Positions 43,302-46,268 of a stretch of 46,268 bases of DNA are shown here, piece after piece (position 1 is the stretch's first letter; every line of letters begins with the position of its first letter). Position numbers and translations under genes: made by a program. This DNA comes from Spirochaetota bacterium (GTDB lineage Bacteria > Spirochaetota > UBA4802 > UB4802): contig JAOAIH010000020.1 of NCBI GenBank assembly GCA_026414805.1, forward strand, positions 1 to 46,268, given 5' to 3'. The notes below the pieces were generated by a model. That model saw only the letters and a program-made list of their open reading frames with translations. It had not been told where the DNA came from and made no database searches.

Positions 43302-43561
43302 ATAATTCAGCTTAATACTTTATATACAAATTTTGCATGCATTTGACACTAAAGTTAAACTTTATTTTTTCAATCACAAAAAAAACTTATAATAAAAAAA
43401 TTTATTAATAATACTTCAAAAGCGTTTGACAGCACATCTACATGAAAATATTTAAATTATTGTAAATAACATAGTAATATGCTATAACACATTCACTTGT
43501 AACTATTTTATACAACTACACATAGTACTATAGGTAAAAAATTTTTCACCAAAGGAGCCCA

Positions 43562-44623
43562 ATGTCAAACTGTAACATCAACAACAAAAGGAATCCGCGG
43601 CTTACAGAATCTGTGCGCGGTTCAGGGTGAGCAGCAAAAATAGGTCCGGCGGACCTAGCAAGGGTAATGAAAAAGCTGCCAATTGAATATTCCAGCAACG
43701 TCCTTGTGGGAATGCAGACAAGTGACGACGCCGGCGTGTACCGAATAAGTGATGATATAGCAGTTGTGCAAACTGTCGATTTCATTACACCGATAGTGGA
43801 TGATCCTTTTGTCTTTGGCAAAGTTGCTGCCACCAATAGTATTTCCGATATATTTGCGATGGGTGGCACACCAATTACTGCAATGAATATAGTGTGTTTT
43901 CCGGTAAATACCTTTGATATTGATGTGCTTGAAAAGATCCTCCTTGGCGGGCTTGAGGTAATGAAGAAAACCGGTGTGCAGCTTATTGGAGGCCATAGCA
44001 TTGATGACATTGAGCTGAAATATGGGCTATCGGTTACAGGAATAATCCACCCTGATAAAATATACACCAATGTAGGTTTACAGCCTGACGATGTCATAAT
44101 CCTTACCAAACCCATTGGTACCGGTACCATCAACACCGCTATCAAAGCGGGTGTGGCTACTGATATACACATACAGGAATGCATTCACTCAATGACTACA
44201 ATCAACGATTGTCTTATTGGCTACCCACATTATAAGCACATCCACGCTGTTACTGATGTTACCGGTTTTGGGCTCATTGGACATTTATCCGAAATGATTG
44301 GTGAAAGCCCAATAGCACTTCACGTTAAAGCCAGTGCTGTGCCACTCATTTCTGGTGCCTGTGACTATGCATCAATGGGACTTCTTCCAGCAGGATTATA
44401 CCGTAATAGGGACTTTGTGGAAAATCGCTGCAAGGTTTCATCCACCATCAAACGCGAATTCGTTGATCTGTTGTTTGACCCTCAAACCTCCGGTGGACTT
44501 TTAATTGCAGTTCCGCCACACCATGCACAGGAAGTCATTGAACATATTTCTGCAAAAGCACTATGTACCGCAATCATTGCTAGTTGCCGCAAAGCTGACA
44601 CACCTCACATATATATTGAATGA
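43562..44623 (+). CDS. selD: Selenophosphate synthetase, selenocysteine-containing
   Basis: The full gene is 353 codons with an in-frame TGA at 43628-43630 (codon 23). It reads SVRGSG, Sec, AAKIGPADLARVM, matching the catalytic Cys/Sec and Lys of SelD (Sec23, Lys26). The part after the TGA (IEYSSNVLVGMQTSDDAGVY, then QTVDFITPIVDDPF and ATNSISDIFAMGG) is the standard SelD core, with FDPQTSGGLLIAV at the end. AAAGGAG precedes the ATG at 43562. SelD makes selenophosphate, the selenium donor for Sec. An ordinary caller would start at 43667 and lose the active site. tRNA-Sec and selA follow on the same strand. Confidence 0.93.
43628..43657 (+). promoter_or_regulatory. SECIS element of selD
   Basis: After the TGA (43628-43630) come 10 bases and then a perfect hairpin TAGGTCC (43641-43647), loop GGC, GGACCTA (43651-43657). 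The loop lies 18 bases after the TGA, within the range expected for a bacterial SECIS read by SelB. The stem is inside the coding region. Confidence 0.8.
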
Positions 44624-44885: not shown

Positions 44886-44976
44886 GGAAGCGGATGAGAT
44901 CTGGTGGTCTCTGCGGTCTTCAAAACCGTTGGCTGCCTTAAAAAGGCAGTGGCAGGTTCGATTCCTGCCCCTTCCG
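44886..44976 (+). tRNA. selC: tRNA-Sec (anticodon TCA) with irregular acceptor stem
   Basis: The long D arm is GAGATC with GGTCTC (6 bp, loop TGGT), the anticodon stem GCGGT/ACCGT holds the loop CTTCAAA with anticodon TCA, the variable arm is CTGCCT with AGGCAG, and the T arm has GCAGG, TTCGATT, CCTGC. These are the hallmarks of bacterial tRNA-Sec. The 5' acceptor GGAAGCGG expects CCGCTTCC, but the 3' strand reads CCCTTCC, one base shorter, so C6 is bulged or mismatched. Discriminator is G; CCA is not encoded. Confidence 0.9.
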
Positions 44977-44999
44977 CATTTGAGTAAAGGGATAACGCA

Positions 45000-46268
45000 A
45001 TGTACGAACAGATACCACAGGTACAAAAATTGCTTGAAGAGGATGAAATTAAACAGTTCATTGATCAGATTGGTCATCCGTTTGTCGTTGCAGTTATCCG
45101 CGAAACACTTGACCAAATACGAAAAGAATTACTAGCAGGCACCCCGTTTGATTATACGCAGTGTATTGAGGCGATAGCTCATAAATGCAGGGCTCTACGT
45201 ATGGAAAAGCTGCAGCGTGTGATTAATGGCACAGGAATATTGCTGCACACTAACTTAGGGCGAGCGCCTCTTGGCAGTGAGGTACTCTACAGCCTTGTAC
45301 ATAACCTCAGCGCTTATTGCAATCTGGAATACCACATTCCCACTATGAAGCGAGGAAAACGAGGGGGATTTGCCGAAAAGCTTATATGCCTCATCACCGG
45401 TGCAGAAGATGCTCTTATCGTGAACAATAATGCTGCAAGCGTGTTCTTGATACTGCACCATTTTGCAAAGGACAAAGAAGTTATTATATCGCGTGGTGAG
45501 CTTATTCAGATTGGTGGTGGTTTCCGTATTCCTGACATTATGCAACAGGCTGGTTGCCATGTTGTGGAAGTGGGAACTACAAATATTACAGAGCTATCGG
45601 ATTATAAAAAAGCAATTACACAGAATACAGCTGTCATCCTTTCTGCACACCGCTCCAACTTTTATATGAGAGGTTTTACCAACAGCCCCACATTGCAGCA
45701 ACTGGCTTCACTCAAATCAGAGTCTTTAATATTGGTAAAAGACCTTGGAAGCGGCAATCTCATTTTCAACAATGACGATAATGTGGCTTCTGCACTTAAA
45801 TATGCTGATTTAGTGTGTTTTAGCGGTGATAAGCTGCTTGGTGCCTGCCAAGCTGGCATCATTGTTGGCAAAAAAGATTATATTGACACACTGAAAAAAG
45901 ACCCCCTCATGCGCATTATGCGTGTTGATAAAGTAACATACTTCATTCTACAAGAAGTACTCCTTCGCTATGCCAACAACACTCACTATATGCTTCCTAC
46001 ATGGGCTTTGATGAAGCAAGATGTACATGCAATAGATAAAAAAATAAAAAAACTTTTAAAGAAACTGAACACTGAGGTTAAACCATTTATTCACCGTATC
46101 AACTCCAAAACTGCATTTGGTGGTGGCGCAATGCCAGATAAGGTGTTACCCGATTACGGCATAGCCATTGCAATTGATGGCAAAAAAGCCAGTGATATTG
46201 CCACACATATGGTTATGCAACCAATTCCCATCATTGGGTATATTCAAAACGATATGTTTACACTAAAT
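45000..46268 (+). CDS. selA: L-seryl-tRNA(Sec) selenium transferase, 3' partial
   Basis: 423 codons, open to the window edge. SelA converts Ser-tRNA-Sec to Sec-tRNA-Sec with PLP. It has the N-terminal domain (QIPQVQKLLEED onward), then RVINGTGILLHTNLGRAPLG, ALIVNNNAASVFLIL, and the PLP-lysine in FSGDKLLGACQAGIIVG (Lys278). Later GGGAMPDKVLPDYGIAI is also typical. The usual length is about 460-470, so roughly 40-50 residues lie outside. AAGG precedes the ATG, 23 bases after the tRNA. selB probably follows beyond the edge. Confidence 0.93.
   Translation, partial: MYEQIPQVQKLLEEDEIKQFIDQIGHPFVVAVIRETLDQIRKELLAGTPFDYTQCIEAIAHKCRALRMEKLQRVINGTGILLHTNLGRAPLGSEVLYSLVHNLSAYCNLEYHIPTMKRGKRGGFAEKLICLITGAEDALIVNNNAASVFLILHHFAKDKEVIISRGELIQIGGGFRIPDIMQQAGCHVVEVGTTNITELSDYKKAITQNTAVILSAHRSNFYMRGFTNSPTLQQLASLKSESLILVKDLGSGNLIFNNDDNVASALKYADLVCFSGDKLLGACQAGIIVGKKDYIDTLKKDPLMRIMRVDKVTYFILQEVLLRYANNTHYMLPTWALMKQDVHAIDKKIKKLLKKLNTEVKPFIHRINSKTAFGGGAMPDKVLPDYGIAIAIDGKKASDIATHMVMQPIPIIGYIQNDMFTLN

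Follow-up and report, generated by a model that had tools for sequence, protein, structure and literature searches.

An in-frame UGA at the catalytic position of SelD in a Spirochaetota bacterium is very probably read as selenocysteine

Where does the selD gene of this Spirochaetota genome begin, and how is the TGA codon close to its 5' end read? We addressed this in a contig of 46,268 nucleotides (JAOAIH010000020.1), the whole of which is called the window here. The frame of selD, encoding selenide water dikinase, occupies 43562..44623 of the forward strand, from an ATG at 43562 to a TGA at 44621-44623. Its single internal stop is the TGA of codon 23 (43628..43630, forward strand), behind which the frame stays open to 44623. 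With this UGA read as selenocysteine (Sec, U), the product has 353 amino acids and begins with MSNCNINNKRNPRLTESVRGSGUAAKIGPADL. A ribosome binding site, AAAGGAG (43551..43557, forward strand), lies 4 nt before the ATG. An earlier note on this DNA had proposed that the TGA hides the N-terminus of SelD and that ordinary annotation would misplace the start at 43667, and both proposals hold. The longest ORF under translation table 11, and thus the expected gene-finder call, is a frame of 318 amino acids on the same strand that opens at codon 36 (43667..44623), so that codons 1-35 would be lost by a standard gene finder. We put the probability that selD is translated from ATG 43562, with Sec inserted at UGA 43628-43630 by means of selC, SelA and SelB, at about 95%.

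The read-through product belongs to the SelD family, scoring 368.8 bits against TIGR00476 (selD), for which the curated cut-off is 125. Escherichia coli SelD (PDB 3u0o) aligned with it from residue 10 through codon 23 (phmmer, 235 bits, E-value 9.7e-69), with U23 opposite the first Cys in GAGCGCK. Codon 23 is therefore the catalytic Cys/Sec position, as had been claimed, and it is followed by the expected xxK, here UAAK. The SelD of PDB entry 2yye, which we take to be that of Aquifex, aligned through U23 in the same way. The E. coli enzyme is of the same family and of similar length, but it has Cys at the catalytic position where the protein described here has Sec, and the second Cys of its CGC motif is replaced by Ala.

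We then compared the locus with SelD genes from 59 related genomes. All matches to SelD whose E-value was below 1e-100 contained exactly one in-frame TGA each; three of these matches are from members of the same genus and are 73-80% identical. U followed by A/C-x-K stood at the place of codon 23 in all of the roughly 100 distinct loci that could be read, which come from Spirochaetota, Deltaproteobacteria-type lineages and Chloroflexota (one locus, L058, was unreadable by the script and was left out). Six more distant SelD homologues had Cys at the catalytic position. The in-frame UGA of selD thus aligns with Sec or Cys of its homologues, as expected of a bacterial selenoprotein. Two further observations were made among these genomes. 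One of them, G020, holds both a Cys-containing SelD (L159, G020:C22) and a UGA-containing one (G020:C40:19999-20973). Another has, besides an intact Sec-SelD gene, a 5' fragment of such a gene that looks decayed and keeps the TGA (L162 1051-1215, G035:C4).

Homologues that start at the position of codon 36 and lack conservation upstream, which the earlier note had named as evidence against its reading, were not found. The congeners keep the N-terminus before codon 36 (LRLTESVRGSGU...), and in codons 12-22 they differ mainly at third positions. Since these upstream codons are conserved with mostly third-position differences, we regard the N-terminus as coding. This bears on the alternative of a genuine stop at the TGA with translation starting at ATG 43667, which would yield an N-terminally truncated SelD or a SelD-like enzyme. 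The 318-amino-acid ORF is indeed open and has an ATG start, and the one selB found in the bin has a nonsense codon (see below). However, both the catalytic residue and a conserved N-terminal motif lie in the part that would be lost, and all close homologues keep this motif with the TGA in place. The start sites differ as well: AAAGGAG stands at short spacing before 43562, whereas 43667 is preceded only by AAGGG, two bases away. We consider a truncated enzyme very unlikely.

The genes next to selD encode Sec machinery. Directly downstream lie selC, the gene for tRNA-Sec with a UCA anticodon (44886..44977, forward strand; ARAGORN; RF01852, 71.7 bits), and then selA, encoding L-seryl-tRNA(Sec) selenium transferase, which runs off the end of the window (45000..46268, forward strand; PF03841, E-value 4e-111; TIGR00474, 471.5 bits). 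Both tRNA-Sec and SelA, which are expected where a bacterial selenoprotein is made, are thus encoded beside the gene. Two congeners (G001 and G002) have the full order selD-selC-selA-selB on one contig, and a third (G004) has the same sel genes split over two contigs; SelB is open in all three. In a fourth genome of the genus, G003, neither SelD nor SelB scored over the cut-off, so that the Sec trait has either been lost there or is absent from the assembly.

Other selenium genes were found in the window's own genome. The selenouridine synthase MnmH is present, as is a second likely selenoprotein gene, for a PrxU-type peroxiredoxin with an in-frame UGA at the active site (FTFVUATE; G000:C24:12444-12839, L178 1501-1896). 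Its best match was PrxU at 253.7 bits, a score obtained with a fragment, to be read beside a whole-protein cut-off of 270. Its UGA is followed by a 7-bp hairpin with a GGTC loop (TTTCTGC-GGTC-GCAGAAA). Searches of the same genome for formate dehydrogenase, FlpD, SelW-like and thioredoxin families returned no further UGA-containing member. The earlier suggestion that the organism probably uses selenocysteine is supported by selC and selA beside selD and by the PrxU-type gene elsewhere in the genome.

Codon 23 would not be Sec if UGA were reassigned throughout the genome to another amino acid such as Trp. We found no support for such a reassignment, and it was rejected because many ORFs of the window end properly at TGA (10 of the 36 main ones, selD included). 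Against it also stand the Cys found at codon 23 in distant homologues and the tRNA-Sec gene with a UCA anticodon that adjoins selD. This is the least probable of the alternatives considered here, and we regard it as extremely so.

A putative bacterial SECIS element follows the UGA. It is a perfect 7-bp hairpin, TAGGTCC-GGC-GGACCTA (43641..43657, forward strand), whose loop (43648-43650) begins on the 18th base past the UGA, as first described. Folded alone it reaches about -10 kcal/mol, with z values of -0.8 to -1.3 in dinucleotide shuffles, which is weak evidence. The hairpin overlies the conserved protein motif UAAKIGPADL, itself a constraint on the bases, and for this reason synonymous-codon shuffles were applied to the homologues. 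With the window sequence alone, about 6% of such shuffles folded as well as the hairpin (p about 0.06). Over 100 Sec-SelD homologues, the stretch behind the UGA had a mean z of -1.55 and ranked first of 47 windows along the gene, the next best having -0.59; kinship among the homologues inflates the weight of single z values, but the other windows share the same kinship. Across the homologues, then, a stem-loop lies right after the UGA and is more stable than codon choice predicts, as expected of a bacterial SECIS, whereas the signal is weak in the window alone. Six Cys-SelD controls, too few for a conclusion, gave mixed z values (-1.9 to +1.4).

Codon choice at the hairpin is skewed, with GGT in 78 of the 100 homologues against a share of 20% of Gly codons. 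Changes at paired positions were mostly one-sided and some pairs were broken, and the pair counts are therefore not evidence of covariation. In one family (L020, L021, L023-L026 and L028), the hairpin is replaced by one of 8 bp located 3 nt further downstream, GGGCCGGC-GGA-GCTGGCCC, and Glu stands instead of Asp at the codon of the shifted hairpin. We take this replacement to be better evidence than the pair counts that some hairpin is kept.

A genome without SelB had been named as a second refuting case. A homologue is present in the genome bin, but the sole copy over the family cut-off (G000:C77:427-2163) is interrupted in frame by a TAA at codon 334 (L001 1426-1428). At its start, contig C77 overlaps the window's final 351 bases with 321 of 351 positions identical (91.5%), and because of this low identity the two contigs probably represent different strains that were binned together. 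Beyond the TAA, about 245 codons follow before the next stop in this frame, and they have diverged from G002 to an extent like that seen between G001 and G002. We therefore take the TAA to be a variant of the strain or an assembly error and not a loss of Sec decoding, a reading that cannot be proved from the present data. The C-terminal part of SelB holds the SECIS-binding domains. If the TAA were real in the window's strain, SelB would be without this part.

The nonsense codon also raises the possibility of a Sec system in decay in this strain, with full-length SelD no longer made. The lack of over-cut-off SelD and SelB in G003 would fit such a decay. However, the probable origin of C77 in another strain and the state of the frame past the TAA argue against it, and selD, selC and selA appear intact. 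We judge it less likely again than a true stop at codon 23. Slighter still is the chance that the window's strain has a nonsense selB and yet decodes the selD UGA by means of a SelB that is either truncated or re-initiated separately.

The preferred reading is thus that of a functional Sec-SelD gene. Ribosomes would start at ATG 43562 and, at UGA 43628-43630, would insert selenocysteine from the tRNA-Sec encoded at 44886. This tRNA would be charged via SelA with selenophosphate made by SelD itself, and SelB would deliver it, recognising the hairpin at 43641-43657. Sec23 would take the place of the catalytic Cys of other SelDs. We infer that Sec is actually inserted, that SelB binds the hairpin and that the window's own strain has an intact SelB. 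The central claim that SelD is itself a selenoprotein is well supported by the alignment of U23 with Cys, the TGA conserved in about 100 loci and the adjacent selC and selA.

Among the selenoprotein families of prokaryotes, SelD is described as the second most widespread, with the motif UxxK (PMC13188914). Sec-SelD with a bacterial SECIS has been described (PMC4561486), and the SelD of the spirochaete Treponema denticola is listed as a selenoprotein (PMC1794560). Known Sec-SelDs (SPS2; TIGR00476), for example those of T. denticola and Deltaproteobacteria, have Sec at the catalytic position and UxxK, as here. They likewise have a hairpin placed directly after the UGA, and Sec-machinery genes in the genome. 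There is no difference of substance, and the present gene comes from another Spirochaetota lineage. Considering that such systems are already in the literature, the selD finding is correct but ordinary: the gene follows a well-known arrangement, and knowledge of selenocysteine decoding is unchanged by it. The finding corrects the gene start, which standard callers would place at 43667 with loss of the catalytic residue of SelD, and it extends the lineages that use Sec by an uncultured genus of Spirochaetota type.
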